A stretch of DNA of 64,000 bases from Pleodorina starrii (lineage: Eukaryota > Chlorophyta > Chlorophyceae > Chlamydomonadales > Volvocaceae). A program made the position numbers and the translations under genes. The stretch's first letter is position 1. Each line of letters begins with the position of its first letter. Positions 13,452 through 34,200 of this stretch are shown here, piece by piece. Location of the stretch: contig BRXU01000079.1 of assembly GCA_030267565.1 (NCBI GenBank), forward strand, positions 43,881-107,880. Reading direction: 5' to 3'. The notes below the pieces were generated by a model. The model was not told the DNA's origin. It saw nothing but the letters and a program-made list of their open reading frames with translations, and did not search any database.

Positions 13452-13488
13452 ACGTAACGCCACCAAATAGCGACGTGAGGGACAGAAG

Positions 13489-18546: not shown

Positions 18547-18768
18547 TCAGCCCTCCACGGTGAAAATGACAGTTTCACCATCGACCGTGTACGGCACGGC
18601 CTTGCTCAACAGGCTCTCGAAGGCGTTGGACGGGACACTCGAAAAGGTCGCGCAGAACAGATCGAGCAGCCGCTGACGATCCTGTTGAAACGCATAGCCA
18701 CTGATGGCCCATGCAAGAATGCCGGGGGTGTGGACGGCGGGCGAAGAACCCAAGCGATAAGTAGTCAT
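18547..18768 (-). CDS. 73-aa plasmid protein, unknown
   Basis: Its ATG at 18768 sits at the same place relative to leader copy A as the DUF3560, ParB and DUF932 starts do to their leaders, with the same AAAGGAAA ribosome site. That shared architecture is the best evidence that it is real. The product (MTTYRLGSSPAVHTPGILAW...) has a mildly hydrophobic first third and ends GETVIFTVEG. By company it may be an anti-defence or establishment gene; this is inference. Confidence 0.6.
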   Translation of the reverse strand: MTTYRLGSSPAVHTPGILAWAISGYAFQQDRQRLLDLFCATFSSVPSNAFESLLSKAVPYTVDGETVIFTVEG

Positions 18769-18917
18769 TGTCGTTTCCTTTTCGTGGCGATGGCGTGGGG
18801 GCTTGGTGCCTCCTTCCGCCGATGGGCTGCGCCTCGTCGGTCTGGTCTGACGAATACGCATGTATTCGGCGGAACAGAGTGAGGAGGGCGAAGCCCGACA
18901 AACGGGCCTGGGCGGTT
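18769..18917 (-). promoter_or_regulatory. 145-bp leader, copy A (structured, quadruplicated)
   Basis: Identical over about 145 bp to the copies at 22478, 31119 and 33638. Each ends in the ribosome site of a minus-strand gene. Dyads: TTCCGCCGA/TCGGCGGAA (18814-18822 with 18866-18874) enclosing GAATAC-GCAT-GTATTC and CGTC/GACG, plus GGGC-GAA-GCCC on the distal side. Candidate single-stranded-DNA promoter or structured leader. Confidence 0.7.
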
Positions 18918-19503
18918 TTGTCAAAGGATCGGAGCCGGGGGGTGGTGCGGCCCGCAGCCGAAGGCGAGGACACGGCCCCCGGTGGAGACGACGCCGCAGG
19001 CGGCGCTTGTCTTTTGACAGGGCCGATCAGGTCTGTTGGCGGATATGAAATGAAAGATCGTCGGGGTGGGGGTGAGCGCGGGCCTTGGCCCGCGTCGATC
19101 CCCCGGCCCGTCCGCAGGATCAAACACAAGCCCGGCGACCAGCCGGGCTTTCTCAATCCTCTATCTTTGGCCGGAGCTATCCAGCCTGCCGCGCTTCGCG
19201 GCGGGCCTTGCAGGGTGGCGAGCTGGACGCGCCATCACAGAGCGAAGGGAAGCGAGCCGCCCTGTGGGAAGGTCCGGCCTTGCGCGAGCGATCGTGACCC
19301 GAAGGGCCGAGACTATGCCGCTGCCCTGACTATTGCGCCCCTGCACGGGCAGGCTCGGAACGAGACAAGCGGGCAGGACCAGGCGCAAAGGAAGGGTAGG
19401 GGCATAGGCTCGGGGCGCAGGTCGGCCCTTGCCGGCCAAGCCTAGAGCGCGGTCCCTCGGGGCGGGTGGTCCAGGGCGATCAGCCCTAGACCGAACGACA
19501 CGA
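18918..19503. repeat. Repeat R1, copy a
   Basis: About 530 bp nearly identical to copies at 27845-28388 and 31264-31801 and to the two halves at 44346-44594 and 45523-45763. It is GC-rich and contains CGCGGGCC/GGCCCGCG and a terminator-like AAGCCCGGC/GCCGGGCTT hairpin about 215 bp in. It ends in a long imperfect dyad (GGTCCCTCGGGG... to ...CGAGGGACGC). It is probably non-coding. It joins leader A on one side and an AT-rich gene on the other. Confidence 0.8.
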
Positions 19504-19560
19504 GGGACGCGGCGGAATGTTTATGGTAGGAGCTTTGCAAAACTGACAAGGGTATTAGCT

Positions 19561-20312
19561 ATGATTTACGAATTACCTCCAGGATATCGAAAACAAAAAA
19601 CTAATTTTGATGGCTTGCCTTTAACGACCAGTTTCGTGCAATAACATTTATTCTTGTCACCACTCTTGGAAGTGGAAGCTACCTCGAAAAGATCTCAGTC
19701 CCCTTAAAACCTTACGTACAAAGTGGACTATTCACACTTTGCGGCATGTCCATATCCATGTTCGCATTCAGTGCATGGTTCTATGTCTCTACACTTTTAA
19801 AAATACCAGATACAAAATCATATGACATTAAACTATTTAAGTGGCTACGAGACAAACTTGCTATTCTAGCTCTGGTTATTTTCGGTCACCTTGCAATAGT
19901 TGTTGTCGCATTATTTCTTTTACCTCAAAATTATACTACGGTGAACGAATATTATCAACCAATAGCCTTAGCGGTATTTGATAAGCTATTTTTTGCACTA
20001 TTTATATCCGCAGGACTTATGTTCTTTTTTTATATTTTGCACGATACTCTAAAAACTGATTGGGCTGGAACTCTCGCTGCGTTTTCAGTATGCGTACTGT
20101 CTCTTCCTGTTTGGTATAACTATTATAGGGATACTCAGAAGAGCGCCTTCATAGCTGATAACCAGTATTGCTATTGGTTTCATGCCGCTGCTGCATCCAT
20201 TCCCAAAGATGCCATATCCAATTTTCGTGATGCCTACCGCTTTGATCCTACCTGCGCCGCACAGCGCCAAAAAGGCGTAGTTCACTTTGGCTTGCGCGTT
20301 TTAAATAGGTGA
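19561..20312 (+). pseudogene. AT-rich integral membrane protein, apparent frameshift near residue 22
   Basis: The ATG at 19561 (AAGGG nine bases upstream) opens MIYELPPGYRKQK... which runs into a stop at 19642-19644. From about 19630 another frame continues QFRAITFILVTTLGSGSYLE... without a stop to 20312. Joined, about 250 aa with four to five membrane spans (for example LAILALVIFGHLAIVVVALF and LFFALFISAGLMFFFYI) and a soluble C-terminus. Alternatively translation starts at the internal ATG at 19746 (188 aa). The base composition is far lower in GC than all neighbours, so it is foreign cargo placed beside R1. Function unknown. Confidence 0.6.
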
Positions 20313-20337
20313 GGCAAAGGCGCGCTTCGAAGGCGGG

Positions 20338-20363
20338 AAGGACGCCGCTAGGCGTCCTTGTCC
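20338..20363 (+). terminator. Intrinsic terminator after the AT-rich membrane gene
   Basis: The 9-bp stem AAGGACGCC/GGCGTCCTT with loop GCTA is followed by TGTCCTT. It lies 25 bp past the stop at 20312. Confidence 0.6.
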
Positions 20364-20449
20364 TTCCGCCGCGTATCTGCATGTAGAACCAGCCCGAATG
20401 ATCTATGCAGTGTCGGCCGCACAGCGGCCTCCCGCGCGGATAGCGCACA

Positions 20450-20490
20450 GTCCGGTTGCGGGGGCGCCGCAGGTGCCTCCGCAACCGGAC
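20450..20490. terminator. Strong hairpin downstream of the methyltransferase gene
   Basis: Perfect 12-bp arms GTCCGGTTGCGG / CCGCAACCGGAC enclose 17 bases, 47 bp beyond the methyltransferase stop on the minus strand. There is no clear T-tail, so it may act as an mRNA-stabilising or factor-dependent stop. Confidence 0.5.
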
Positions 20491-20537
20491 ACCATACCGC
20501 GGAGAAGAGGGGCCGCGTCCGACCCCTCTGCCTCTGT

Positions 20538-21143
20538 TTAGTCACGGCGCACCCTGACAATCTTGGTATGCACTCTGGCAGTGCTGAACGTGTCAGGCGG
20601 CAAGGTTTCCAGGTGCTCGGCCTCGGGATGCTCAAAAGTGACCGGCACCAGGGCCACAAGATTTGCCGCCTCGACGTGGCCGCCTCGCCCTAGAAGGGTC
20701 AAAGCCGCTGCAACATGCTTCCGCACATCACGAAACGGCGGGTTCATGATGATGCGGGGAAACTCAGTGCGGCCTTTCACCTCATCGGCGTATTCCAGAA
20801 AACAACGGTTGATGGTCGGGCCGATGCTGCGAAGCGATGCGGCAAGTTTGTGATGACGCTCGATCATCGTCAGTTCTTGCGCGCTGTGGCCGGAGGCGAT
20901 CAACGCGCGCGCGAGCTGGCCGGTCCCGGCGCTTGGCTCTAGCGTGAGATAGTCTCCAACGGGGCCAAGATAGCCCACCATGCGCCGCGCCACGTCCTCG
21001 GGCGTGACGTGGCATTCCGTGGCGCGGTCAACTGCGATGACTTCGGGCGCTTCGGCCATTGCGAGGGCGGGCGCGTCCCGTCGTGCCCTGACCGGAATGG
21101 TCAGGGGCTTGGCGGGACGGGTGTAGATCGCGGGGCGCTTCAC
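20538..21143 (-). CDS. DNA adenine methyltransferase-like protein
   Basis: The start is GTG at 21143 overlapping the DUF3560 stop (GTGA); the longer open frame upstream is only a shadow of DUF3560. The 201-aa product has SAM motif I as LEPSAGTGQLARAL and the catalytic motif IV as NPPF (IIMNPPFRDVRKH), the layout of N6-adenine enzymes. There is no recognition domain or partner nuclease, so it is an orphan methylase that could protect incoming plasmid DNA from restriction. It is co-transcribed with DUF3560 behind leader B. Target sequence unknown. Confidence 0.8.
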   Translation of the reverse strand: MKRPAIYTRPAKPLTIPVRARRDAPALAMAEAPEVIAVDRATECHVTPEDVARRMVGYLGPVGDYLTLEPSAGTGQLARALIASGHSAQELTMIERHHKLAASLRSIGPTINRCFLEYADEVKGRTEFPRIIMNPPFRDVRKHVAAALTLLGRGGHVEAANLVALVPVTFEHPEAEHLETLPPDTFSTARVHTKIVRVRRD

Positions 21144-22477
21144 GCTGCTGCCTCCATGTCTTGAACGCTGGCCGGGGCGTCGTGCTGCTTCTGGTCTGTG
21201 ATCAGGATTGCAGCCCATCCGGCCATATAGCGGGGGCCTTCGTGCTTCGGGTTCGGGGCGATCCTCACGCGGAAATTGCCGCAGGTCGAAAGGCGGGTGC
21301 CGCGCTGCTCGGTGTGGATCTTGACATAATCTGCCTTGGTCATTTCCACTTGCGGCAGGTTCTCGGCTTCCCTGCGCCACGGGTTCACGACAGAAATTGT
21401 GCCGCTCCCGGCTTTGAAATTCAGGATCGGCGGCTTGGCGGGCTTGCTGGCCGGGGGCAGGTAGCCGCAGGATTGCATCAGGTCGCGCCACTCGTCGGCG
21501 GAAAGTTCGACGCTGCACCCTTGGGCGATATGGGCGGGCAGGGGGGCGGCACATTCCACGGTGAATAGGTCGGCATCGACCTTCGCGCCCTTTGGCTTGT
21601 CCGCGCCATGCTCTCGGACGAACATCTGCAACAGGGTCGGGCTAATCTCGCCTTGATAGCGCGGCACGTCGCCTAGCATGTCCCGCTCATAAGCAAGCCG
21701 GTTCAAGGTGTGCGAAATCCAACGGCCCAGGTTGTCGCTCTCGATGGTGGCGCGCGCTCCAGCCATTGCCTTTTCGCGGGCCTCCTGCGGGGTTATCTCG
21801 CCACTCTCAACGGCGGAATAAAGGTTATAGGAATGCAGATCGCCGCGACCCAAGCCAAGGCGGATCAGGTTGTCTGTCGTCAGCTTGCCCCACACTTCAA
21901 GCGCCTTGTGCGCAGTGTTCAATTTGCGCTGTAGGTCGCGCAGTTCGGCTAGAAGCGTCTTGATGCGGCCCGCGCGCACTTTCGGATCGTTCTTGCGGTT
22001 GGCGTGACGCTCGACGCCTTCGGCGCGATACTGCCAGTATCCGATGGCTTTGTGCGCCTTTACAGCCTTGTCCATTGCGTTGTGCATCCGCTCCTGCGTC
22101 TTGCGGGCCTTCCGCTCGGAATGATGGCCGACAAGGATAGGCTGCCCAAACTCGAACGCGCGCGACAGTTCGTCAGCCGCGCGGGAATACGCGCTAGCCT
22201 GCGTGGCCCGTTTGTCCGCGATGGCGTCCAGTCGATCAGCCTTCATCTGCGCCCGTTCCGCCAGGGTCATTTCCTCCGGCTCAATCTCGCCAGCCAGCTC
22301 CAGAGCCAAATCCTCACGGGCGCAGGACCATGCGGGGGCAACGAAAAGCTCCTGTTTGGGTGCCCATTTGAAGCCTGCGGCCTTCACGCGCTGATAGGTT
22401 TCGGCATCAAGACGGGTGGACGGATATAGGCGGATTTTGTTGTCTTCGGGCGAGTAGGTCGCGGAAATGGTGGTCAT
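21140..22477 (-). CDS. DUF3560-domain plasmid protein
   Basis: 445 aa from the ATG at 22477 (AAAGGAAAC ribosome site). The N-terminus (MTTISATYSPEDNKIRLYPS) with AAGFKWAPKQELFVAPAWS is the DUF3560 hallmark: a small fold that also recurs in plasmid anti-restriction-type proteins. A long coiled-coil region with many Ala/Arg/Lys follows (about 85-220), then a C-terminal domain with LSADEWRDLMQSCGYL. It is widespread on alphaproteobacterial plasmids; function is not established. Position behind leader B beside a methyltransferase suggests a role in establishment or anti-defence, which is inference. Confidence 0.8.
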   Translation of the reverse strand: MTTISATYSPEDNKIRLYPSTRLDAETYQRVKAAGFKWAPKQELFVAPAWSCAREDLALELAGEIEPEEMTLAERAQMKADRLDAIADKRATQASAYSRAADELSRAFEFGQPILVGHHSERKARKTQERMHNAMDKAVKAHKAIGYWQYRAEGVERHANRKNDPKVRAGRIKTLLAELRDLQRKLNTAHKALEVWGKLTTDNLIRLGLGRGDLHSYNLYSAVESGEITPQEAREKAMAGARATIESDNLGRWISHTLNRLAYERDMLGDVPRYQGEISPTLLQMFVREHGADKPKGAKVDADLFTVECAAPLPAHIAQGCSVELSADEWRDLMQSCGYLPPASKPAKPPILNFKAGSGTISVVNPWRREAENLPQVEMTKADYVKIHTEQRGTRLSTCGNFRVRIAPNPKHEGPRYMAGWAAILITDQKQHDAPASVQDMEAAA

Positions 22478-22625
22478 GTCGTTTCCTTTTCGTGGCGATG
22501 GCGTGGGGGCTTGGTGCCTCCTTCCGCCGATGGGCTGCGCCTCGTCGGTCTGGTCTGACGAATACGCATGTATTCGGCGGAACAGAGTGAGGAGGGCGAA
22601 GCCCGACAAACGGGCCTGGGCGGTT
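22478..22625 (-). promoter_or_regulatory. 145-bp leader, copy B, before DUF3560
   Basis: Same sequence as copies A, C and D. Stem arms at 22522-22530 and 22574-22582; the inner hairpin GAATAC-GCAT-GTATTC is at 22560-22575. The distal flank is R2 type (TGTGTGAACACC...), as for copy D. Confidence 0.7.
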
Positions 22626-23055
22626 CTGTGTGAACACCGCGCAAAACTGCCTTTTGCGTCACGAAACTACCTCGTGCGTGTGTTTCCGACATTTCCCGTT
22701 CGTGCCCTTCTGATCCGCCGAGTGGCGAAGCCATCCGTGCTTTTCACTTTGGATGACCTCATGTCATCCGAAGGGCAAAGCAGGGTGGGCGCAGCCCGAC
22801 CTGCGGCCGGACGGTGATCTGACACACGGGGCCGGAGCGGTGAAATTGGGAGGGGCCCGCGCCCTGGCGCGGGAGGAACCGGATTTCTCCGTGGAGGCTG
22901 ACGCGCAGCGGCACCAGAGCCCGTGTTCAGAGCGCCGGCCGGATGGCAGGCGGACCTAGCAAACGGAAAGGTGTCGGACGTGCCAGAGCGGAGCGGAGGC
23001 GCGGCTGTCCTTCCGATCAGCGATCGCGGCCATAACCGCGATCACCGCGTCCGCT
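22626..23055. repeat. Repeat R2, copy a
   Basis: About 400 bp similar to 33787-34200. It contains GGATGAC/GTCATCC and the shared block from CACTTTGGATGACCTCATG through GGTGAAATTGGGAGG to the GATCAGCGATCGCGG segment. The copies differ at several positions (for example TAGCAAACGG here, AAAAGAAATG in copy b), so they are older than R1 a/b/c or under less homogenisation. No convincing gene inside. Confidence 0.7.
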
Positions 23056-23109
23056 TCCAAGGATTTTAGGTAGAGTGCAGCATAAGCATCGATGTGCATG
23101 ATCATGATT

Positions 23110-23138
23110 ATGTCATCCACCTGAAACGTAGTCGTCAT
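23110..23138 (+). promoter_or_regulatory. Possible Pho box upstream of ptxA
   Basis: Three half-site-like heptamers lie at an exact 11-bp period: ATGTCAT (23110), CTGAAAC (23121) and TCGTCAT (23132), compared with the PhoB half-site CTGTCAT. The first and third match well, the middle one poorly. The site is about 65 bp before ptxA, where phosphate-starvation control of a phosphite operon would be expected. Confidence 0.45.
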
Positions 23139-23202
23139 ATTGCGCGCCTATTGATCGACCCATCCTATCGCGACCGCAGAACGATTAGAAAGATGCATCA
23201 TC

Positions 23203-24018
23203 ATGTTGGCTTTGAACAGGGTTGCCGTGACCTATGGGAATGGCACACAAGCTCTAAAACCGACCTCGCTGAAGCTCGCGCAGGGGCAGTTTGTCGTCCT
23301 TTTGGGCCGCTCTGGCGCGGGTAAATCCACACTCATCCGCACCCTTAACGGCTTAGTTGCTCCTACGTCCGGTTCGATTATCGCTGATGGCGTTGGATCT
23401 CTGGACGGAGAGCGGGCGCTCCGAGTGCACCGCAGGCGCACCGGGATGATTTTCCAGCAGCACCAGCTCATCGGGCGCTTGAGCGCGCTTGATAATGTGA
23501 TGACCGGTCGCTTGGGCTATCACTCATCCTTTCGAACCCTCTTTCCTCTTCCGCGTTCTGACCGGCAACTTGGGCTGGAATGTCTTGCTCGGGTTGGCTT
23601 GCTCGACAAAGCCTTGGTGAGGGCTGACCAGTTGTCGGGCGGCCAACAGCAACGTGTCGGCATCGCCCGTGCTCTGGTTCAGCAGCCCCGATTGATACTG
23701 GCTGACGAACCTGTGGCCAGCCTCGATCCGGAAACAGCCGTCGAAGTCCTTTCGCAACTCCGCCACATTTGCACGACGGATGGCATAACGGCTGTCATCA
23801 GCCTGCACCAGATCGACTTGGCGAGGCGCTTTGGTGATCGGGTCATCGCCATGCGTGATGGCTCTGTAGTCGCAGATGCGTCCGTTGATGAACTGACAGA
23901 TCAGATGTGCGCCTCGATCTACCGCAGCGAAGCTTCAGGCCGGAGTTCGCAGCAAGCGCATCACCATTCATCCCACTCCCAACCACAACCTGTTGCTGCC
24001 ATGGAGGCCGCCCTATGA
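23203..24018 (+). CDS. ptxA: Phosphite ABC transporter ATPase PtxA
   Basis: 271 aa, PhnC/PtxA type. Walker A is GRSGAGKST (35-43), the signature is LSGGQQQRVGIARAL, and Walker B is LILADEPVASLDPE, followed by the switch histidine in VISLHQID. It powers uptake of phosphite through PtxB and PtxC. The His-rich C-terminal tail (QQAHHHSSHSQPQP) is unusual. The stop overlaps ptxB (ATGA). The order A-B-C-D-E and the ptxD gene make phosphite rather than phosphonate the likely substrate. Confidence 0.92.
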   Translation: MLALNRVAVTYGNGTQALKPTSLKLAQGQFVVLLGRSGAGKSTLIRTLNGLVAPTSGSIIADGVGSLDGERALRVHRRRTGMIFQQHQLIGRLSALDNVMTGRLGYHSSFRTLFPLPRSDRQLGLECLARVGLLDKALVRADQLSGGQQQRVGIARALVQQPRLILADEPVASLDPETAVEVLSQLRHICTTDGITAVISLHQIDLARRFGDRVIAMRDGSVVADASVDELTDQMCASIYRSEASGRSSQQAHHHSSHSQPQPVAAMEAAL

Positions 24019-24863
24019 AGAAGTTGCTCCCCGTTGTCGTTCTCGCTGCTCTCGGCTGCGGCTCCGCAGTGCATGCGGAGGCAAATCCAGAAACTCTGCG
24101 CGTGGCGCTGTTGCCCGACGAGAACGCCGCCACAGTGATCAAAAACAATCGTCCGCTGGAAGAGTATCTTGAAGAAACTCTTGACCGCGACATCGAGCTG
24201 ATCGTGACCACCGACTACTCCTCGATGATCGAGGCGATGCGGTTCGGTCGGCTTGAAATCGCATATTTCGGTCCGCTTTCCTACACGTTGGCCAAGACGA
24301 AGGCCGAGATCGAACCCTTTGCGGCACTGATGAAAGACGGCGAGACAACTTACCGCGCCGTTGTCATCGGCAACGCTGAAGCCGGCATTGAGACTATTGC
24401 GGATGCTGCCGGCCACGATGTGGCATGGGGTGACGTGGCATCTACTTCCAGCCACCTGATCCCGAAATCCATGCTGCTTAAAGCGGGCCTAGAAGCAGAG
24501 ACGGATTACAGCGAGAACTACGTCGGCTCCCATGATGCCGTGGCGCTGGCGGTGCAAAACGGCAATGCTCAGGTTGGTGGTCTTTCGCTGCCCATCTTCA
24601 ACGCTATGGTTGCTCGCGGCACGATCGACCCCGCGAAAGTTGTTGCGCTCGAAGAGTCCGATCCGTTTCCGCAGTATCCTTGGACGATGCGCTCTGACCT
24701 CGATCCGAGCCTGAAGCAAGCCATCACCGACGCGTTCATCAACCTGAACGATGAGGAAGTGCTGGCGACGTTCAAGGCAGATGGTTTCGCGCCGATCAAC
24801 GACAAGGCTTACGATGTCGTGCGGGATCTCGGTAAGATGCTGAACCTCGACCTCAGCAAATAA
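24015..24863 (+). CDS. ptxB: Phosphite-binding periplasmic protein PtxB
   Basis: The start at 24015, coupled to ptxA, gives a typical signal peptide (MKKLLPVVVLAALGCGSAVHA). The 282-aa PhnD-type binding protein has LRVALLPDENAATVIKNN, the ligand-site segment TTDYSSMIEAMRFGRLEIAYFGPLSY, and VASTSSHLIPKSMLL, all typical of the PhnD/PtxB family. It delivers phosphite to the PtxC channel. Confidence 0.92.
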   Translation: MKKLLPVVVLAALGCGSAVHAEANPETLRVALLPDENAATVIKNNRPLEEYLEETLDRDIELIVTTDYSSMIEAMRFGRLEIAYFGPLSYTLAKTKAEIEPFAALMKDGETTYRAVVIGNAEAGIETIADAAGHDVAWGDVASTSSHLIPKSMLLKAGLEAETDYSENYVGSHDAVALAVQNGNAQVGGLSLPIFNAMVARGTIDPAKVVALEESDPFPQYPWTMRSDLDPSLKQAITDAFINLNDEEVLATFKADGFAPINDKAYDVVRDLGKMLNLDLSK

Positions 24864-24930
24864 GACATATCAACCGCCATTCATTGCGGGCGCAGGCGAA
24901 GTCTGCGCCTCACTTTTCAGGAGCACGTCA

Positions 24931-25737
24931 ATGACAGCGCTTTCCCCAAGTTTCGACAGCATCCTTCAGCGCCAAAGTAGAGCTTGGAAGCGCGCTGCCG
25001 TGATCGCGGTGATCATCGCTGGCGTCATCATTGTCAGCAGCTACCACTCCGGCTTGCTTGATCTGGAGCGGCTTGGTTCCGGCCTTCCTTCGCTTTGGCA
25101 GTTGGGAAGTGAAATGGTTCCGCCCGATTTCAGCCGTGGGATGGAGTGGATCGGCCCCTTGGTTGATACTCTTGCCATGAGCATCGCCGGGACGGCAATC
25201 GCGGTTCTGATTTCGCTTCCCGTTGGCTTTTGCGCTTCGCGAAAAACAGCGCCAAACCGCGTTATCTACATGATCGCCCGCGGCCTGCTGAACGGCCTGC
25301 GCTCCATCCCTGAGTTGATCATGGGTATCGTTTTCGTTGCGGCGGTAGGCTTCGGGGCTCTGCCCGGCGTTCTTGCTCTAGGCCTTCACTCCGTTGGCAT
25401 GGTCGGAAAGTTCTTTGCAGAAGCCATCGAGCATTGTGACAATGCGCCGATCGAGGCGGCGCGGGCCGCCGGTGCTTCACCCTTCCAGATCGTCACGCGC
25501 GCAATCCTGCCGCAAGTCCTGCCTCAACTGGCCGATGTCACGATCTACCGTTGGGAGTATAACTTCCGCGCCTCCACCATCCTTGGCACGGTCGGAGCCG
25601 GCGGCATCGGCTTCGAGCTGATGACCTCTCTTCGGATTATGAATTATCAGGAGGTTCTTGCCATCATGCTGGTCGTTCTTCTGATGGTCACCGTGGTCGA
25701 TCAGGTCGGCGCTCTTCTTCGCCGCCAACTTCAATAA
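24931..25737 (+). CDS. ptxC: Phosphite ABC transporter permease PtxC
   Basis: 268 aa with about five to six membrane spans and the permease EAA loop as EAARAAGASPFQIVTRAILPQ, matching PhnE/PtxC. GLLNGLRSIPELIMGIVFV is also characteristic. The RBS TCAGGAGCACG lies nine bases before the ATG. A 67-bp gap after ptxB holds the short dyad GGCGCAGGC...GTCTGCGCC, which may tune expression between binding protein and permease. Confidence 0.92.
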   Translation: MTALSPSFDSILQRQSRAWKRAAVIAVIIAGVIIVSSYHSGLLDLERLGSGLPSLWQLGSEMVPPDFSRGMEWIGPLVDTLAMSIAGTAIAVLISLPVGFCASRKTAPNRVIYMIARGLLNGLRSIPELIMGIVFVAAVGFGALPGVLALGLHSVGMVGKFFAEAIEHCDNAPIEAARAAGASPFQIVTRAILPQVLPQLADVTIYRWEYNFRASTILGTVGAGGIGFELMTSLRIMNYQEVLAIMLVVLLMVTVVDQVGALLRRQLQ

Positions 25738-25757
25738 ACAACAACAGGGAGCGCGAC

Positions 25758-26756
25758 ATGTTGCCCAAGATCGTTATCACGCACAAAGTCCATGACGAGA
25801 TCCTGACCAAGCTGGCGCCTTATGCCCGCGTCAGCGTCAACGAGTCGGACGATACTTGGGCGCATGACAGGCTTTTGGCAGAACTCAGTGATGCGACTGC
25901 GATGATGGCTTTCATGCCGGATCGGATCGACGCTACGGTTCTGAGCCACGCTCCTAGCCTGCGGCTTGTAGCTTGCGCGTTGAAGGGTTTCGACAACTTT
26001 GATGTTGCTGCCTGCACGGCACGAGGGGTCCATGTCTCCATCGTGTCCGATCTTCTGACTGATCCGACCGCAGAACTGACCATCGGCTTGATGATTGGCT
26101 TGGGGCGGCACATCCTGCCGGGGGATGAAGCTGTCAGAATTGGCTACAAGGGGTGGAGACCGCGTTTCTACGGCGTGGGCCTGAAGGGCGCAGCGGTTGG
26201 CATCTTAGGCATGGGAGCGATCGGCAAGTCCATTGCTGAACGGCTCACGGGCTTTGGAACGCAAGTGAGCTATTGGGACAGGCGCGAGCTCGGTTCTGAT
26301 GATGAAGAAAGGCTCAAGGTTACGTTCACGGATTTCGAACGGCTTCTTTCCACTTCGGATTTCGTAGTGTGTGCCCTTCCGCTCGCCAACGACACGCAGC
26401 ATCTGCTCGGCGCACTGGAAGTTGCGAAGATGCGGAAGGGGACGCTTCTGATCAATCCATCACGTGGGAGCGTTGTGGACGAAGGGGCCGTGGTGGCTGC
26501 GCTGGAGGCGGGACATCTGGCGGGTTACGCCGCAGATGTCTACGAGATGGAGGACTGGGCGCGGCCGGATCGACCTGAAGCTGTCCATCCTGGCTTGGTG
26601 CAGCGTCGCACGGACACCTTGCTGACACCCCATATCGGCTCGGCGGTTACCAAGACTCGCCTTGCGATCGAGCATGAGGCGGCTGACAACATCATTGATC
26701 TTCTTGAAGGCCGCAGACCGCGAGCCGCTATCAATGAGCCCGCGTCTGTTCTTTAA
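25758..26756 (+). CDS. ptxD: NAD-dependent phosphite dehydrogenase PtxD
   Basis: 332 aa, close to the family's 336. The start MLPKIVITHKVHDEIL and internal MMAFMPDRIDA, CALKGFDNFDVAACTARGV and YAADVYEMEDWARPDRP match PtxD closely. The Rossmann motif is GILGMGAIG (about 148-156). Catalytic residues are K76, R236 (NPSRG), E265 (VYEMEDW) and H292 (TPHIGS). An acidic D174 at the end of the second Rossmann strand fits NAD preference. It oxidises phosphite to phosphate, so the host can use phosphite as sole P source. Confidence 0.95.
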   Translation: MLPKIVITHKVHDEILTKLAPYARVSVNESDDTWAHDRLLAELSDATAMMAFMPDRIDATVLSHAPSLRLVACALKGFDNFDVAACTARGVHVSIVSDLLTDPTAELTIGLMIGLGRHILPGDEAVRIGYKGWRPRFYGVGLKGAAVGILGMGAIGKSIAERLTGFGTQVSYWDRRELGSDDEERLKVTFTDFERLLSTSDFVVCALPLANDTQHLLGALEVAKMRKGTLLINPSRGSVVDEGAVVAALEAGHLAGYAADVYEMEDWARPDRPEAVHPGLVQRRTDTLLTPHIGSAVTKTRLAIEHEAADNIIDLLEGRRPRAAINEPASVL

Positions 26757-26769
26757 CAAGGTATCCTGC

Positions 26770-27684
26770 ATGTATCATCTGTCTCATGTCGCTGCCTTCG
26801 TTGAAGTCATCGAGACGGGAAATTTTCGTGCGGCATCGCGACGGCTGCAAATCTCGCAGCCTACGGTTTCGAACAGCGTCAGGCGCCTTGAGGATATCCT
26901 AGGGGTGCAACTGGTAGATCGAGGGAACGATCGCTGTGTTCCGACGCGGCACGGAGCCATATTATTGCCATTTGCCAAGAGCCTGCTGACGGTTTCTGCA
27001 CGTGCCTTTGACCGCTTGCACATGGAACAAATTCAACTGGGTGCGAGCAGCAACATCGGTATCTACCTCATGCCGGAGCATCTGAAGCGCCTGCATGGTG
27101 CCAAAGGGCGCTCTGCCAACTTGGTAATCGCCTCCAACCTGGAGATCTTAGAAAAACTCCAGAGAAAGGAAGTTGATCTTGCTTTCATGGAGTGGTGGGA
27201 CGGCCGGAATGGATACGAGGCCAGCCTGTGGCGCACCGAGAAGCTCATTTTGATTGTTTCCCCGGATCACCGGTGGGCAAGCAAGGGTTCGATAGACTCG
27301 TCTGAACTTTTCACGGAGTCGCTGATCGGAGGCGAGCGTGGAACCGGGACGGGCACTATTCTCCGCCGTGCCTTCGGTCAAAAAGCAGATCAGCTATCGA
27401 TCAGCCACACAACCGGAAGCACTGAAGGGGTGAAGCGTGCGGTCAGAGCGGGACTAGGCGTATCGTTGGTGATGAAAAGCACGGTTCTCGATGAACTGGC
27501 TTCGGGTCAACTTTGTGAAGTTTCTATCAAGGGCGTAGATTTGGAGAAGCCAATTTGGGCCGTCCATCCTGTAAAGATGGAGGACGGTTCCCCGGAAGCC
27601 GAGACGCTTAGCATCCTCCTCAATGCCAAGACGGTGCCTGTTCTATGTCAGCAGGCTGCACGACCAGCCGAAGCAGCTAACTGA
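26770..27684 (+). CDS. ptxE: LysR-family regulator PtxE
   Basis: The start at ATG 26770 leaves the LysR helix-turn-helix at the N-terminus (MYHLSHVAAFVEVIETGNFR, then LQISQPTVSNSVRRLE); the longer frame upstream overlaps ptxD and is rejected. 304 aa with a LysR substrate-binding domain. It is 13 bp after ptxD in the same direction, as ptxE is in the known ptxABCDE operon. Its role in regulation is modest in known systems; phosphate control is thought to be dominant. Confidence 0.88.
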   Translation: MYHLSHVAAFVEVIETGNFRAASRRLQISQPTVSNSVRRLEDILGVQLVDRGNDRCVPTRHGAILLPFAKSLLTVSARAFDRLHMEQIQLGASSNIGIYLMPEHLKRLHGAKGRSANLVIASNLEILEKLQRKEVDLAFMEWWDGRNGYEASLWRTEKLILIVSPDHRWASKGSIDSSELFTESLIGGERGTGTGTILRRAFGQKADQLSISHTTGSTEGVKRAVRAGLGVSLVMKSTVLDELASGQLCEVSIKGVDLEKPIWAVHPVKMEDGSPEAETLSILLNAKTVPVLCQQAARPAEAAN

Positions 27685-27844
27685 AAGACAGACATGGGGC
27701 CTCGAAAGAGATGTATGAACCGCAGCCGAACAGCGGCCGCGACCTTGTAGCGGCAAGATTGCGTGGCAGATGAAGCAAGAATGCCTGACACGTTGTCGGT
27801 GCTTTTCGAAGTTCATGCACCGTGGCGCGGCAAATCATCTTGCG
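27685..27844. other. Non-coding joint between ptxE and R1b
   Basis: Contains no recognisable gene. The last bases GAATCTACATTCTGTCAAAGG (27844 onward, shared with 44346 onward) mark the left boundary of both R1b and R1d. Confidence 0.4.
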
Positions 27845-28388
27845 AATCTACATTCTGTCAAAGGATCGGAGCCGGGGGGTGGTGCGGCCCGCAGCCGAAG
27901 GCGAGGACACGGCCCCCGGTGGAGACGACGCCGCAGGCGGCGCTTGTCTTTTGACAGGGCCGATCAGGTCTGTTGGCGGATATGAAATGAAAGATCGTCG
28001 GGGTGGGGGTGAGCGCGGGCCTTGGCCCGCGTCGATCCCCCGGCCCGTCCGCAGGATCAAACACAAGCCCGGCGACCAGCCGGGCTTTCTCAATCCTCTA
28101 TCTTTGGCCGGAGCTATCCAGCCTGCCGCGCTTCGCGGCGGGCCTTGCAGGGTGGCGAGCTGGACGCGCCATCACAGAGCGAAGGGAAGCGAGCCGCCCT
28201 GTGGGAAGGTCCGGCCTTGCGCGAGCGATCGTGACCCGAAGGGCCGAGACTATGCCGCTGCCCTGACTATTGCGCCCCTGCACGGGCAGGCTCGGAACGA
28301 GACAAGCGGGCAGGACCAGGCGCAAAGGAAGGGTAGGGGCATAGGCTCGGGGCGCAGGTCGGCCCTTGCCGGCCAAGCCTAGAGCGCG
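27845..28388. repeat. Repeat R1, copy b
   Basis: Nearly identical to R1a through about 530 bp, with the same internal hairpins. The left edge differs from copies a and c: GAATCTACATTCTG replaces the leader. It closes the ptx module on the right. Confidence 0.8.
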
Positions 28389-28445
28389 GTCCCTTGGGGC
28401 GGGTGGTCTAGGGCTTCTCGCCCTAGACCACCCGCCCCAAGGGAC
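28389..28445. repeat. Perfect 26-bp inverted repeat at the end of R1b
   Basis: Arms at 28389-28414 and 28420-28445 are exactly complementary with a 5-base loop (TTCTC). The same position in R1a (about 19450-19505) and R1d (about 45702-45760) has a similar but degraded dyad. Confidence 0.9.
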
Positions 28446-28481
28446 GCCGCGATAAAAATTTGTTCTGCTCGTAAATGGAGA

Positions 28482-28700
28482 TTAGCGCAAATGATCCATT
28501 GCCGGTGACATGCGCGCAATTCCAACGGTCTCATAGGTGCCCGTTTTCGGGTTCAGCACAAACAAGCCGTTGCCGCGCAACTCCACCGTCAGCACGCCGT
28601 CAGGGCTGGATAGCTTATCGAAACATGCCAGCATCTTTTCCACCATATCGCGTGTCACTTCCGCCTTGGCGTCCTGTCCCATCTCGCGTGTCGAAAGCAT
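28482..28700 (-). CDS. 72-aa plasmid protein, unknown
   Basis: The start at 28700 has a good ribosome site (AGAAAGG, six-base spacer); a longer frame to 28772 lacks one. The product starts MLSTREMGQDAKAEVTRDMV and contains DGVLTVELRGNGLFVLNPKTG, a small alpha-beta fold. It ends 36 bp from the 26-bp palindrome. Family not recognised. Confidence 0.55.
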   Translation of the reverse strand: MLSTREMGQDAKAEVTRDMVEKMLACFDKLSSPDGVLTVELRGNGLFVLNPKTGTYETVGIARMSPAMDHLR

Positions 28701-28921
28701 AAAAATACCTTTCTTAATAACTACGCTGGAAGACATATTTGATTTGGCGGCCTGTACCACGAGGTAGACCAAAAGGACTGTTCAAAAGAACAGTATCACG
28801 TTTTTTCTTGACACGCGCGTCAACTTTCCGCTGCGCCGTCAGGTGCAGCTCGGCCCGAAGGGCCGGGCCGGGCGGGGGGGTCGGCGCAGACGGCCGCCCC
28901 GCCAGGTCATCACTCCCCGCC

Positions 28922-28949
28922 AAAAAGAAGCCCCGCTAGATGCGGGGCT
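28922..28949 (-). terminator. Terminator of the ParB-59aa operon
   Basis: On the minus strand the stem AGCCCCGC/GCGGGGCT is followed by TCTTTTT. It lies 41 bp after the stop of the 59-aa gene. Confidence 0.8.
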
Positions 28950-28989
28950 AGTTGAACCTTCGCCGCGGAAGGATGGGCATGGCTGCGGT

Positions 28990-29169
28990 CTATTGAACAG
29001 GATCGGCGGCGGGAAACTCGGTGGCTGCCGGGGCTGGCCGCAAGCGGACACTCTGATGTGTCCATGCTGCGCTGTGCAGTTTTTGCTGCGCGTCTTTGAA
29101 AGGCAGGGGATCGGCATGCAGATCAACCCATGCAGTGCCGTTCCAGTGGGTTGCGATATACAGCGACAT
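28990..29169 (-). CDS. 59-aa small protein downstream of the ParB-domain gene
   Basis: ATG at 29169, TAG at 28990-28992, ribosome site AGAGAGAT. The product begins MSLYIATHWNGTAWVDLHAD and includes QQKLHSAAWTHQSVRL, a Trp- and His-rich small domain. It lies 68 bp after the ParB-domain gene and before the operon terminator, so it is very likely expressed with it. No family recognised. Confidence 0.55.
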   Translation of the reverse strand: MSLYIATHWNGTAWVDLHADPLPFKDAQQKLHSAAWTHQSVRLRPAPAATEFPAADPVQ

Positions 29170-29237
29170 TGAAATCTCTCTAGTCTGAAAATGCTCGGTA
29201 TGGGGCGGCTAACGCCGCCCCTCCGGTTCGGTATGAA

Positions 29238-31112
29238 TCAGAAGCAGTCCGGGGTCCAAGCCTCGATGCGGGCTTTCTTCTCCGCGTCGATCTTCCATGC
29301 CTTCTGATACTCGGCATCGCTGAACAGCCGCTCCATGCACTGCGCTTTTTCAGCCTTCTTCTGCGCCTTGTGCGCCTTAAAGCCGTTCCCCTGCGGATCG
29401 CAGCCCGTCAGGTCCAGATGCAGCGCGTCCAGATAATCGGCGCTGACGCGGCTGAAAAAGTTCTCGGCGGTGGGCGTCCAGACCTTGCGGATACCGGCCC
29501 CGGCATCGGCCTCGATCAGTCCGAAAAAATCCGCGCTGCCTGCGCCATAGGGCAGGGTCCGCGCCACGCTCTCGACCAGCGCCGCGTTGCGGGCCTTCTT
29601 GCCTGCGGCGACGAACGTGCGGAAGGCGGTCGCCAGATCGTCCACACGCAATTCCGGGCGGCTCCATGCCTCATGTCCCGCAGGGGCATGGGTCAGCCGT
29701 TCGGAAAACTCCAACCCTTCCGGCTTGCTTGGGCAGTTGTTGGGGCGTCCCGGTGACACGTCGAACACATGGGTGCTGACGCCCGATGCCAGCGACAGGC
29801 CGAAGGCCAGCAGGTCGAACACCATTTCCGGCTTGTCCAGCAACGCGGTCTGGATCGCGGCCAGCCGCACGGCCTTCATGTCCTCGACCAACGCGCCGGA
29901 ATAGGGCGACTTGGGGGCATCCTCGACGCTGGCCGCGATATGGCGCGTTGCGGCATGGCCGGTCAGAACCTGCGTCTCGATCGCCTCGGCGCGGTCATAA
30001 GGGCTGACAAGGGGGTTGGTTACGCAAAGCCGTCCATCGCTCCCCACATAGACGAACACCCCGGCCACGGCGCGCTGCGCATCGGTGTAATCTCCGTCAA
30101 GGATTGCGACCAGTTCCGCCAGTTCGGCCTGCCCTGCCTCGTCCAGAACGTCGCCATTCGCCAGTTCGGCCAACTCGTCGTAACGCTCGGACTGCGCTTC
30201 GGTCAGTTCGCCCGGGACAGGATAGATGCGGTCCAGCTTCTCGGCAGTGCCGTAGGGCACATAGCTGTCGGGCATGGCCTCGACCCATTTCCAGACTTCA
30301 CCGATCTTTGCCGCTGCCTCGTCCATCTTCTCGTTGAACAGGCGAGCCAGCAGATCGCCATCGTGAAGCGCGGTCGTGTCGCTGAACAGGTCGCGGTTCA
30401 TCCGTCCGCCCGCTGCGGTGTAGGCGTCCAGCCCGACAAACAGGGCGCGGCGGTCGGTGCCGCTGATCGCTTCGGGCTGCAAAGCCTGCTTGATGCGGTA
30501 TTCGGACACGTCGCGGCCCATCACCTCGGCCAGAACCTGCAAGGTCAGGGCCTCGTCCTGGGACACGGTAAAGGCTTTTGCCATGCCAAGGCTGATTTGC
30601 CCCGCCTTCAAGGCGTCCAGAACAGCAGCGGGCAGTGCTGCCAGCGCAAGGCGGCGGTAAACATGCGCCTCGGTCTTGCCGAAGCTGCGGGCGATGGTGG
30701 ACACGTCTGCGCCTGCCTCCTTCATCCGGCCATAGGCACGGATTTCATCGGCGGGTGCCAAGTCCTCGCGGGCGGCGTTCTCGGCGCTGGCCCATGCCCG
30801 CGCGGTGGCCTCGTCGGGGGCGATGCGGACGGGAACGGAGGCCAGTTCCGGGTGGCGCTTGGTCACGGTCGGATCACGCTCGACCGCGCGGGCGATGGCG
30901 CGCAGCCTGCGGCCCCCGGCGACGATGCCGACGCGGCCATCCGCGTCAACGGTGCCGGAAAGGTTCTGGATCAGGCCGATCATGGCAAGGCTGTCGGCCA
31001 GCAGGTCGATCCCCTCCGGGTCCGCGTCCTGACGCGGGTTCATGTCGGAGACATAGAGTTGGGCCAGCGGGAAATACTGGATGGCGGCGGCGGTGATGAT
31101 TTCGGTTTTCAT
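29238..31112 (-). CDS. Long ParB/RepB-domain protein (leading-region type)
   Basis: 624 aa from ATG 31112 (AAAAGGAAAC site); the longer frame includes leader C and is rejected. The N-terminus carries the ParB nuclease-like domain (PLAQLYVSDMNPRQD, then VGIVAGGRRLRAIARA with the GGRR motif), followed by a helix-turn-helix (SFGKTEAHVYRRLALAAL). The long C-terminal half is not homologous to partition ParB. Such proteins are common on plasmids near the origin of transfer and are counted among leading-region genes; they are not partners of parA here. The C-terminus (KAHKAQKKAEKAQ) is basic. Confidence 0.85.
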   Translation of the reverse strand: MKTEIITAAAIQYFPLAQLYVSDMNPRQDADPEGIDLLADSLAMIGLIQNLSGTVDADGRVGIVAGGRRLRAIARAVERDPTVTKRHPELASVPVRIAPDEATARAWASAENAAREDLAPADEIRAYGRMKEAGADVSTIARSFGKTEAHVYRRLALAALPAAVLDALKAGQISLGMAKAFTVSQDEALTLQVLAEVMGRDVSEYRIKQALQPEAISGTDRRALFVGLDAYTAAGGRMNRDLFSDTTALHDGDLLARLFNEKMDEAAAKIGEVWKWVEAMPDSYVPYGTAEKLDRIYPVPGELTEAQSERYDELAELANGDVLDEAGQAELAELVAILDGDYTDAQRAVAGVFVYVGSDGRLCVTNPLVSPYDRAEAIETQVLTGHAATRHIAASVEDAPKSPYSGALVEDMKAVRLAAIQTALLDKPEMVFDLLAFGLSLASGVSTHVFDVSPGRPNNCPSKPEGLEFSERLTHAPAGHEAWSRPELRVDDLATAFRTFVAAGKKARNAALVESVARTLPYGAGSADFFGLIEADAGAGIRKVWTPTAENFFSRVSADYLDALHLDLTGCDPQGNGFKAHKAQKKAEKAQCMERLFSDAEYQKAWKIDAEKKARIEAWTPDCF

Positions 31113-31118
31113 GATCTG

Positions 31119-31263
31119 GTTTCCTTTTCGTGGCGATGGCGTGGGGGCTTGGTGCCTCCTTCCGCCGATGGGCTGCGCCTCGTCGGTCTGGTCTGACGAA
31201 TACGCATGTATTCGGCGGAACAGAGTGAGGAGGGCGAAGCCCGACAAACGGGCCTGGGCGGTT
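31119..31263 (-). promoter_or_regulatory. 145-bp leader, copy C, before the ParB-domain gene
   Basis: Identical to copies A, B and D except for the last six bases before the start codon. The distal flank is R1c, as in copy A. Confidence 0.7.
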
Positions 31264-31801
31264 CTGTCAAAGGATCGGAGCCGGGGGGTGGTGCGGCCCG
31301 CAGCCGAAGGCGAGGACACGGCCCCCGGTGGAGACGACGCCGCAGGCGGCGCTTGTCTTTTGACAGGGCCGATCAGGTCTGTTGGCGGATATGAAATGAA
31401 AGATCGTCGGGGTGGGGGTGAGCGCGGGCCTTGGCCCGCGTCGATCCCCCGGCCCGTCCGCAGGATCAAACACAAGCCCGGCGACCAGCCGGGCTTTCTC
31501 AATCCTCTATCTTTGGCCGGAGCTATCCAGCCTGCCGCGCTTCGCGGCGGGCCTTGCAGGGTGGCGAGCTGGACGCGCCATCACAGAGCGAAGGGAAGCG
31601 AGCCGCCCTGTGGGAAGGTCCGGCCTTGCGCGAGCGATCGTGACCCGAAGGGCCGAGACTATGCCGCTGCCCTGACTATTGCGCCCCTGCACGGGCAGGC
31701 TCGGAACGAGACAAGCGGGCAGGACCAGGCGCAAAGGAAGGGTAGGGGCATAGGCTCGGGGCGCAGGCCGGCTCTTGCCGGCCAAGCCTAGAGCGCGGTC
31801 C
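31264..31801. repeat. Repeat R1, copy c
   Basis: Matches R1a through about 530 bp, with a few changes near the end (CGGCTCTTGCCGG). The terminal dyad is missing: after GCGGTCCC the sequence becomes unique. Confidence 0.8.
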
Positions 31802-31837
31802 CGGACAAAGGACGGGATGCGACATGATCCCGGTTAG

Positions 31838-32053
31838 CTATGGGTTGACCTCCATGGGGATCTGGACACCCAGCTTGAGCGCTAAAGCCTCCAGTCCCTC
31901 TATGGACGCGTTGTAAGCCGTGCCAGATTTAGGAAAGTCAGTTCGCATCCTTCTGTAGAAAGCCAGTTGAACCGTCAGTTCTTCAATAGGATAGGTGCCC
32001 GCCCAATGGGTTCCAGACATTGTGAAAGTGGATTCGGTGTGCGTGATCTTCAT
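31838..32053 (-). CDS. 71-aa plasmid protein, unknown
   Basis: The start at ATG 32053 gives MKITHTESTFTMSGTHWAGT...; the open frame continues far upstream but without a better start. It contains YPIEELTVQLAFYRRMRTDF and GLEALALKLGVQIP, a plausible small helical domain. It ends 36 bp from R1c, the same spacing as the 72-aa gene has to the R1b palindrome. No family recognised. Confidence 0.5.
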   Translation of the reverse strand: MKITHTESTFTMSGTHWAGTYPIEELTVQLAFYRRMRTDFPKSGTAYNASIEGLEALALKLGVQIPMEVNP

Positions 32054-32269
32054 CCGTCGATTTTGCCTGATACTGGCGGCAAGAGACAAGTTCGGATGAA
32101 AATCGAAAAGCTGAAACCAGACGCAACCGCCCGCCCGGTTGCCCACAGGCTGACGCTCGATCCCTGTGGTCTCGCTTACAGCCTGCTCCGGCCCGCTGCG
32201 TCCACTCCCAAGGTCGTTCCCTTGCGGGCTGGACAACCGGGCTCTGTTCGGAACCTCGACCTTATAAAA

Positions 32270-32305
32270 AAGCACAAGGCGCGGCATTGCCGCGCCTTTC
32301 TGTTC
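32270..32305. terminator. Terminator of the DUF932 operon
   Basis: The stem AAGGCGCGGC/GCCGCGCCTT with loop ATT has a T-rich run on both sides (AAAAAAGC on the left). On the minus strand it follows the 96-aa gene. The rest of 32054-32421 shows no gene. Confidence 0.7.
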
Positions 32306-32421
32306 TTAGCCGGAACCGGCCTCCTGCGCGGATAGCGCCAGACCAAGCCGACCAGGGTATCTTTGCCCTGGTCGACTTGGTCACCTGAGCTGCGTTTGCC
32401 TTCGGTCAGGATGGGCTTTTC

Positions 32422-32712
32422 TTAGTGGTGCCAAAAGTCCCGCGAATATTTACGCCCTTGGATTGTGATGCGGTTCTCTTGGTCAATTGGAATCAAGTCG
32501 CGCGTCTGAGGCTGGCCGTTGGCGTCTATGGCATAAACGCTGCAGGTCAGGTTATCGTTGGAAAACCATGGCACCTGAAAACACCAGTTGCCTCGTCCAC
32601 TCTCCCGGCTCTGAAAGTAGCCGTTCCAGTTGCGACACTCCCAGTTTCCGGCCCACCACGTTGCGCCGTGTTCGCTTTTGTTGATCGTATCGGGAAAAAG
32701 ATCATCCATCAT
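32422..32712 (-). CDS. 96-aa plasmid protein, unknown
   Basis: Starts MMDDLFPDTINKSEHGATWW and has many Trp, Asn and Cys residues (WECRNWNGYF, WCFQVPWFSNDNLTCSVYAI). It lies 55 bp downstream of DUF932 on the same strand and before a terminator, so it belongs to the leader-D operon. Family not recognised. Confidence 0.6.
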   Translation of the reverse strand: MMDDLFPDTINKSEHGATWWAGNWECRNWNGYFQSRESGRGNWCFQVPWFSNDNLTCSVYAIDANGQPQTRDLIPIDQENRITIQGRKYSRDFWHH

Positions 32713-32767
32713 TGCACCGTTGTCCCATTGGAAAGGTGGCAGGGCCTTGCGGCCCTGCCTGCGGCAT

Positions 32768-33637
32768 TCATCCAGCTTTGATTTCAGCCATCCGTTCGGT
32801 CAGCATCCAAAGGGCTCGGTTCAAGGAACGGTTCTGGTCGATCCCGGCAACCTCACGGGTACTCCGGCGAACGGTGCGCCCGTTGGCATCACGAACGCGG
32901 CCTGTAAGTCCGCCTTTGATCGTATTTTCCTGCACAACGTTGAAAGCCGTCCAAAGATCGGTGGCACGATCCGCAGAACGGCGGGGGCGCAAAAGGGCGT
33001 CAGCCTGAATGGCCGCGGGCTTGGCTTCGTCGGCAGTAGGAAAACGCAGCGTGTGGGCGGCTTCTGCCAGTGCCTCGCGCTCAATGTCCCGCAGGGTAAT
33101 GGATTTCCAACGCGAAACCTGATCCACCACCACGGGGGCATCCTGTAGGACGCTGTAAGCGCCTTCGATAACTTCCCCGATGGCATTGCCGGAATGACGA
33201 ACCCTCACCTCATTGAACGTCTCGCCAGTCATCAAGCCGTTTTCGCAAACGAACCGGAAAAACCCCGGCATCATGTGATAGGCACTTGTCCCGTCATTGG
33301 CATTGACCAGCACAATCTCAAAAGCATCGCCTTCGGTATTGGTCAAGGACCGGTGGCGCAGGCGCAGCATGTGCTTGGTGTATTCCGCTTTGCCTTCAAT
33401 CCGGGTGCGTGCCTGAACGGCGCTGAACGGTTCAAACCCTTCGGCGCGCAAGCCGTCAAGAACCGTGATGGTAGGGACCGGCGCGAAGCGGGCGCTGCGG
33501 CTTTCGTGGGCGTCGGTCGCAAAAATCGACGGGACGGCTGCGCGAAGCTGCTCATCGCTAAGGGCCTCACCCCGGCCCGTGATGCGATTGCCTGCGCTCA
33601 TGCCGCGCATAAAACGGGAAAAATTGTGAATGGTCAT
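32768..33637 (-). CDS. DUF932 domain protein (phage/plasmid-like family)
   Basis: 289 aa from ATG 33637, with the same AAAGGAAA site as the other leader genes. Landmarks are MTIHNFSRFMRGMSAGNRIT near the start, YHMMPGFFRFVCENGLM (the family's ENG motif) and FNVVQENTIKGG near the end, which identify DUF932. Members are common on conjugative plasmids and phages; function is unproven, with roles in establishment or anti-defence proposed. Confidence 0.85.
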   Translation of the reverse strand: MTIHNFSRFMRGMSAGNRITGRGEALSDEQLRAAVPSIFATDAHESRSARFAPVPTITVLDGLRAEGFEPFSAVQARTRIEGKAEYTKHMLRLRHRSLTNTEGDAFEIVLVNANDGTSAYHMMPGFFRFVCENGLMTGETFNEVRVRHSGNAIGEVIEGAYSVLQDAPVVVDQVSRWKSITLRDIEREALAEAAHTLRFPTADEAKPAAIQADALLRPRRSADRATDLWTAFNVVQENTIKGGLTGRVRDANGRTVRRSTREVAGIDQNRSLNRALWMLTERMAEIKAG

Positions 33638-33786
33638 TGTCGTTTCCTTTTCGTGGCGATGGCGTGGGGGCTTGGTGCCTCCTTCCGCCGATGGGCTGCG
33701 CCTCGTCGGTCTGGTCTGACGAATACGCATGTATTCGGCGGAACAGAGTGAGGAGGGCGAAGCCCGACAAACGGGCCTGGGCGGTT
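33638..33786 (-). promoter_or_regulatory. 145-bp leader, copy D, before DUF932
   Basis: Identical to copy B, including the first bases of the R2-type flank. Confidence 0.7.
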
Positions 33787-34200
33787 CTGTGTGAACACCA
33801 AGCAAAATTGCCGTTTGCGTCACGGCTTTGCCTTTTAGGTGACCCAACATCTCCGCCCGCTCCTTCCTGTTCCGCCAGTGGCGAAGCCATCCCTGCTTTT
33901 CACTTTGGATGACCTCATGTCATCCGAAGGGCAAAGCAGGGTGGGCGCAGCCCGACCTGCGGCCGGACGGTGATCTGACACACGGGGCCGGAGCGGTGAA
34001 ATTGGGAGGGACCCGCGCGCTTGCGCGTGGGAGGAACCGGATTTCTCCGTGGAGGCTGACGCGCAGCGGCACCAGAGCCCGTGTTCGGATCGCCGGCCGG
34101 ATGGCAGGCGGAAAAAGAAATGAAAGATCGTCAGCCGTGCCAGAGCGAAGCGGAGGCGCGGCTGTCTCCTGGATCAGCGATCGCGGTGCCCGCGATCACC
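33787..34200. repeat. Repeat R2, copy b
   Basis: Similar to 22626-23055, sharing the GGATGAC/GTCATCC hairpin and the GATCAGCGATCGCGG end. After about 34200 the sequence is unrelated to copy a. From 34201 to 34475 no gene is evident; a short GCAGCGAATGCAG-type segment there recurs near 54230. Confidence 0.7.

Follow-up and report, generated by a model that had tools for sequence, protein, structure and literature searches.

What do four identical-looking leaders do in front of four operons of one plasmid? Contig BRXU01000079.1 of the Pleodorina starrii assembly GCA_030267565.1, of which we analysed 64,000 nt (positions 43,881 to 107,880; hereafter, the window), has the gene content of a bacterial conjugative plasmid of Paracoccus-like bacteria, with a MOBP relaxase and a type IV secretion system (T4SS). 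Within it, four minus-strand genes are each preceded by a copy of the same 149-bp leader. Our analysis points to a promoter-like element acting on the incoming single strand, that is, a candidate single-stranded DNA (ssDNA) promoter of the leading region, comparable to Frpo of plasmid F; we give this reading a probability of about 0.57.

Four leaders head four minus-strand operons

A first-pass annotation, made by a model from the sequence, had described the four copies as identical over about 145 bp, and this is nearly exact: leaders 2 to 4 are identical over 149 bp and leader 1 differs by a single base near its distal end. The ribosome site of a minus-strand gene marks the end of each, and the four genes are those originally named.

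18773..18921, minus strand: leader 1, reading toward the gene of a 73-aa protein; one base off from the other three
22481..22629, minus strand: leader 2, preceding the DUF3560 gene
31119..31267, minus strand: leader 3, preceding the ParB-domain gene
33642..33790, minus strand: leader 4, preceding the DUF932 gene

The copies are modular. Those at 18773 and 31119 extend as one 684-bp repeat (99.6%), and those at 22471 and 33631 have another flank in common (90% over 583 aligned positions).

A covarying hairpin

The plus strand of leader 1 folds into one imperfect hairpin of about 36 bp, hereafter hairpin A (−28.2 kcal/mol, z −6.98); structure prediction of the top strand, which had been proposed as a check, gives a fold far better than those of shuffled sequences, none of 200 being as stable. 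The complement strand reaches −15.7 kcal/mol (z −2.60). Matching self-complementary arms are found in all four leaders, and two divergent copies of the family, which the first-pass annotation had not listed, lie beyond leaders 2 and 4.

18824..18896, plus strand (the probable transferred strand): hairpin A of leader 1, from energy fold and self-complementary match
22532..22604, plus strand: hairpin A of leader 2, from self-complementary match
31170..31242, plus strand: hairpin A of leader 3, from self-complementary match
33693..33765, plus strand: hairpin A of leader 4, from self-complementary match
22712..22811, plus strand: divergent hairpin A family copy beyond leader 2 (E 3.8e-11)
33867..33967, plus strand: divergent hairpin A family copy beyond leader 4 (E 3.4e-11)

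Among 90 distinct aligned copies (two partial copies were dropped before alignment, and two copies without a recognisable arm were left out as well), 95.8% of the cells in the 17-pair core are paired, against 88.4% after shuffling, and covariation is 0.234 against 0.106, a value that none of 500 shuffles reaches; the best slid version of the pairing gives 0.094. Divergent copies held out of the model (34 of 56 forward matches, namely the more divergent ones plus three; 31 distinct) retain hairpin A with different arm sequences. The evolutionarily kept fold is this imperfect hairpin with its many compensatory changes. A single-strand fold, as the first-pass annotation proposed, is thereby supported in the form of hairpin A, but not in that of the outer stem TTCCGCCGA/TCGGCGGAA: its letters are complementary, but it lies outside the minimum-energy fold and its covariation (0.097 against 0.101 shuffled) rules it out as a conserved structure.

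Probable selection on one strand of hairpin A

Wherever one strand has a G.T pair, its complement has an A.C mismatch, and the balance between the two can be read as a strand signal. On the transferred strand of hairpin A (91 distinct copies, arms paired by Watson-Crick rules only) we counted 126 G.T, 25 A.C and 372 other mismatches; shuffled arms give a G.T/A.C ratio of 1.04 under slightly different alignment settings. Reconstructed on a tree, changes from a Watson-Crick pair led to another Watson-Crick pair 17 times, to G.T 15 times and to A.C four times. The excess of G.T over A.C has p 0.019, or p 0.047 versus the corresponding transitions in unpaired columns (64 vs 55). Folding energies are computed to favour the same strand, which is stabler than composition explains in 81 of 93 copies and stabler in 28 of the 31 held-out distinct copies, the copies in both sets being related and hence not independent trials.

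Selection thus seems to act on the transferred strand of hairpin A rather than on the duplex or the mRNA, since strand-asymmetric wobbles together with transferred-strand stability speak against functions that are duplex-only or mRNA-only.

Relatives and the genes behind them

With a 158-bp leader query we obtained matches in 23 of 72,556 plasmid records, most of them from Rhodobacterales. From 22 copies we built a sequence-only model, so that structure would not guide the collection of further copies, and it recovered the two divergent copies of the window as well as at least 85 copies among at least 80 loci fetched by a short pattern from bacterial and archaeal genomes. With stricter filters, a match was present in 40 of the 394 genomes searched in the family of Paracoccus versutus and in 2 of 385 in its class, one of these being the centre genome itself. 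Copies from outside Rhodobacterales belong to Jiella, Ochrobactrum, Fulvimarina, Aurantimonas and Altericroceibacterium. Homologues are found on plasmids of Rhodobacteraceae, with scattered cases in other Alphaproteobacteria, and, as the search suggested in the first-pass annotation was meant to reveal, they stand before other genes too, ArdC and DUF3768 among them.

We recorded 165 element places in 133 regions, 157 of which are then followed by an open frame of at least 55 codons. The distance from element edge to start codon is 31-37 nt (10th-90th percentile) and 30-50 nt in 141 of the 157, in frames picked by start codon, ribosome site and nearness, a choice biased toward short distances; measured from the base of hairpin A, start codons lie about 55 nt away. 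The computed gene content (n = 157; one representative per named cluster was tested with Pfam) is dominated by ArdC (75), followed by an unnamed 102-aa family (14), DNA methylase (11), DUF3768 (10), DUF932 (10), ParB-like (6), DUF3560 (6), DUF1419 (2) and smaller clusters. With ArdC, DUF932, DUF3560, ParB-like proteins and methylase downstream, the original assignment to leading-region type functions is well matched.

Transfer polarity

In all 44 regions with both mobC and an element, mobC lies on the strand opposite to the element's fold strand and to the 5′ side of the latter; one extra region, with a weak relaxase match only, shows another orientation. Wherever a region holds several elements, all of them are on one strand (24 of 24). 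Of 29 non-redundant mobC flanks, nine carry the full MOBP motif YATCCTGY, always on the fold strand and never on the other, and 20 lack it. Going by the accessible part of PMC3772185, the relaxase remains bound to the 5′ end after this motif, and the fold strand is therefore the transferred strand in those plasmids.

No full YATCCTGY nic motif is present in the window or in its closest relative, so for the window we infer the transfer polarity from synteny with relatives; the plasmid of Paracoccus sp. Arc7-R13 carries transfer genes and leader-headed genes in the same order. To this extent the leading-region position and the gene polarity claimed from the sequence stand.

A second hairpin, module B

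Some leaders are followed by a second hairpin, module B, which in the window occurs twice beside a leader and twice without one.

18918..19035, plus strand: module B beside leader 1, second hairpin with TTGAC in the outer stem
31264..31381, plus strand: module B beside leader 3, in the same 684-bp repeat as leader 1
27856..27972, plus strand: leaderless module B, within the copy of the neighbouring module at 27853
44358..44474, plus strand: leaderless module B; the repeat copy begins at 44355

Module B comes after hairpin A in 33 of 64 non-redundant copies (110 of all 163), and the distance from hairpin A to its GTCA is 23 nt in 32 of these 33 and 22 nt in the remaining one. Aligning 41 non-redundant out of 116 copies gave a covariation of 0.390 against 0.107 shuffled. 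Five adjacent pairs, TTGAC/GTCAA, are nearly invariant (TTGAC in 38 of 41, GTCAA in 35 of 41), and in 20 of 41 copies both bases of the pair adjoining them have changed. The sigma-70 −35 box has TTGAC as its core, and in module B this sequence is directed toward the gene. An earlier count had GTCAA within 60 nt in 26 of 54 copies.

A listed element stands in front of 77 of 120 module B copies, the other 43 including loci where elements had not been listed. Three module B copies with no hairpin A before them (L053, L021 and L016) have by eye a GACGTTCCACAC-like flank in common, perhaps another leader type. Two further observations concern the upstream repeat. The leaderless copy at 44355-45762 is interrupted from about 44595 to about 45514 by a stretch with a 293-aa open frame, and a 57-nt inverted repeat (28389-28445, 91% complementary) sits at the end of another copy.

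How the leaders might work, and what weighs against it

We picture the following sequence of events. The plus strand would be transferred 5′ end first from an oriT beside mobC, so that the region to the right of 13 kb would enter early. In the recipient, hairpin A, together with module B where present, would fold on the transferred strand, and the folded hairpins could serve as a double-stranded platform at which host RNA polymerase enters. Reading toward the 5′ end of that strand, the polymerase would then make mRNA of anti-restriction and establishment genes, until second-strand synthesis dissolved the hairpins and ended the expression pulse. Recognition by RNA polymerase, the start site, the timing and the shut-off are inferred parts of this picture.

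Several results weigh against this reading. A sigma-70 consensus scan (−35/−10 at 16-18 nt, both strands) of 18560-19560, which covers leader 1 only, returned no site, and no −10 box was recognised. Of 64 non-redundant copies, 26 lack module B, the part with the TTGAC, and five have it incomplete; leaders 2 and 4 are among those without it. The strand preference of module B is itself mixed: the transferred strand is stabler by energy in 75 of 80 copies (less stable in three), and flanked mismatches in module B beside hairpin A number 38 G.T vs 2 A.C, but the total of 61 G.T vs 35 A.C, the count to which the shuffled control applies, is about the shuffled ratio of 1.69 and the tree count is 29 vs 25. 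Where module B is absent, seven of eight flanks fold slightly less stably on the transferred strand. In hairpin A itself, the tree also has many changes (21) to mismatches of other kinds than G.T and A.C. As for polarity, the window has an ATCCTG core alone at 12802, on the opposite strand, a site that its near-identical relative lacks, and one other plasmid has CATCCTG on the opposite strand. Finally, the two strands of Frpo itself differ little in folding energy.

Other promoter candidates were considered and set aside. Within hairpin A no sigma-70 boxes were seen by eye in either topology. GGAAC in its 3′ arm, which we take to resemble an extracytoplasmic-sigma box, is ruled out by divergent copies without it. 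A duplex promoter upstream of the hairpin fails as well, the fixed-place TTGAC belonging to module B, which 26 of the 64 non-redundant copies lack.

A more elaborate version of the ssDNA promoter, tentative and rather unlikely in our judgement, is a composite one-way switch. Hairpin B would give the consensus −35 core, TTGAC, in double-stranded form and about 17 bp of spacer, and hairpin A, abutting the presumptive −10 place, would supply an already open or mismatched start region. The duplex, with a −35 but no −10, would be silent, so that the genes would be on only while single-stranded; in copies without module B, hairpin A would work with another partner.

Alternative explanations

The strongest rival, though an improbable one, is a single-strand initiation site, the hairpins priming complementary-strand synthesis by RNA polymerase or primase and expression being a side effect or separate. 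A priming site likewise predicts a transferred-strand fold in the leading region, but it would not lead one to expect a fixed distance of 31-37 nt to the start codons, or a copy at every one of the four operons.

An ordinary duplex promoter or operator common to the operons, with a regulator bound at the dyad and identity maintained via gene conversion, comes next and is likewise doubtful. The dyad symmetry, the near-identity of the copies within one plasmid and a helix-turn-helix gene nearby in some relatives would all suit an operator; the hairpin arms, however, are compensatory and not conserved, the wobbles are strand-asymmetric, the sigma-70 scan at 18560-19560 was empty and the coupling to mobC polarity would be left unexplained.

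Quite improbable is a structured 5′ mRNA leader, be it a riboregulator or an attenuator. The element does sit before a ribosome site and its RNA, too, folds better than shuffles (z −3.52), but the wobble excess is on the opposite strand from the one where G-U pairs would be expected, the sense strand is the less stable one (−15.7 vs −28.2) and the window has no Rfam match at gathering level. An antisense RNA from the plus strand, covering the leaders and regulating all four operons, would give the same wobble polarity but is most improbable of all, as the scan of 18560-19560 found no plus-strand sigma-70 site and the mobC polarity coupling in 44 of 44 regions would go unexplained.

Overall, the interpretation put forward in the first-pass annotation is partly supported: transferred-strand selection on hairpin A is supported, and the promoter is a candidate.

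Genes and plasmid setting

The genes headed by the leaders, together with the transfer genes, are as follows.

18547..18768, minus strand: gene of the 73-aa protein after leader 1, without a match to the Pfam families searched, NCBIfam or PADLOC
21140..22474, minus strand: DUF3560 protein after leader 2 (domain match on a longer frame)
20538..21143, minus strand: methyltransferase-like gene of the leader 2 operon (weak matches; its counterpart in a colinear plasmid is annotated methyltransferase)
29238..31112, minus strand: ParB-domain protein after leader 3
32768..33634, minus strand: DUF932 protein after leader 4 (domain match on a longer frame)
31838-32287 and 32422-32712, minus strand: two small genes after DUF932, without Pfam match
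169-7370, plus strand: T4SS genes
7433-12554, minus strand: block of coupling protein, relaxase and MobC
9607..11976, minus strand: relaxase (Pfam Relaxase above cut-off; VirD2 and MobP1 models below theirs)
11976..12554, minus strand: MobC-like protein
12555..13488, strand not given: presumed oriT region, the mobC-virC1 interval, with an inverted repeat at 12580-12646
13489..14208, plus strand: VirC1-like ATPase

Between the presumed oriT and virC1, a 32-bp unit is repeated in 8.3 tandem copies (12994-13259). The leading region also holds an AbiJ-like abortive-infection gene (15372-16259, plus strand). Between leader 2 and the orphan module B, 23203-27684 encodes an ABC transporter with a phosphonate-type binding protein, a 2-hydroxyacid dehydrogenase and a LysR regulator, presumably a ptxABCDE-like phosphite operon. 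The contig itself, a bacterial plasmid within an assembly of 136 Mb and 95 contigs, would belong to a symbiont or contaminant of the eukaryote genome.

Comparison with known single-stranded promoters

According to the available parts of the literature, the ssDNA promoters that have been tested come from F, and ColIb-P9 has homologues of them. F carries two repeats of about 540 bp, 90% alike, which end about 21 nt before ssb and before the gene that precedes DUF932; on the ssb side, ssb is followed by DUF905, a ParB-family gene and psiB. By their position in the accessible text of PMC9849209 we take them as Frpo2 (before ssb) and Frpo1. As far as these sources go, Frpo1 and Frpo2 of F and the Frpo-like sequences of ColIb-P9 are, like the leaders, repeated, placed just before leading-region operons and endowed with a transferred-strand stem-loop, and some gene families are common to both systems (DUF932, ParB-family, a methylase nearby). 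The leaders differ from Frpo of F in having no recognisable −10 and a −35 core in module B only (33 of 64 copies), and in being a family of Alphaproteobacteria with four near-identical copies and a hairpin of about 36 bp.

The element model gave no match at E up to 10 in F 49.0-67.5 kb, F being the only Frpo plasmid compared. We do not class the leaders as Frpo, because homology to F and canonical boxes were both sought and neither was found. Frpo was not used as a yardstick of fold energy, since for both F repeats the transferred strand is lower at 310 nt and higher at 230 nt.

One intergenic stretch of the window, 17104-17216, resembles the far part of the F Frpo1 repeat (66% over 114 nt, E 3e-6, lenient scoring); 40 shuffled queries gave no match under 1e-3. 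The plus strand of this stretch and the minus strand of the F locus have a GCTGCAAGCC...CAGGG.TGGAA motif in common, and the stretch has matches in only three plasmid records.

Also close are the candidates that Samuel et al. 2024 (PMC11541004) named Frpo′ and Frpo*, which, going by the main text, were found by similarity to five known Frpo/ssi or by −35/−10 consensus. Like the leaders, they are predicted folded promoters before anti-defence genes oriented so that the transferred strand is their template; that main text does not contain the words Alphaproteobacteria, DUF932 or DUF3560. In the available excerpts of the open-licence literature, no paper was recognised as describing this leader family. 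The strand favoured by wobble pairs offers a general test for such elements. If the ssDNA promoter reading is true, candidates for anti-restriction genes on plasmids of Rhodobacteraceae could be recognised by their leaders, and it would seem that ssDNA promoters arose more than once, since this family of Alphaproteobacteria, which numbers more than 100 copies and shows covariation, has no sequence relationship to Frpo.

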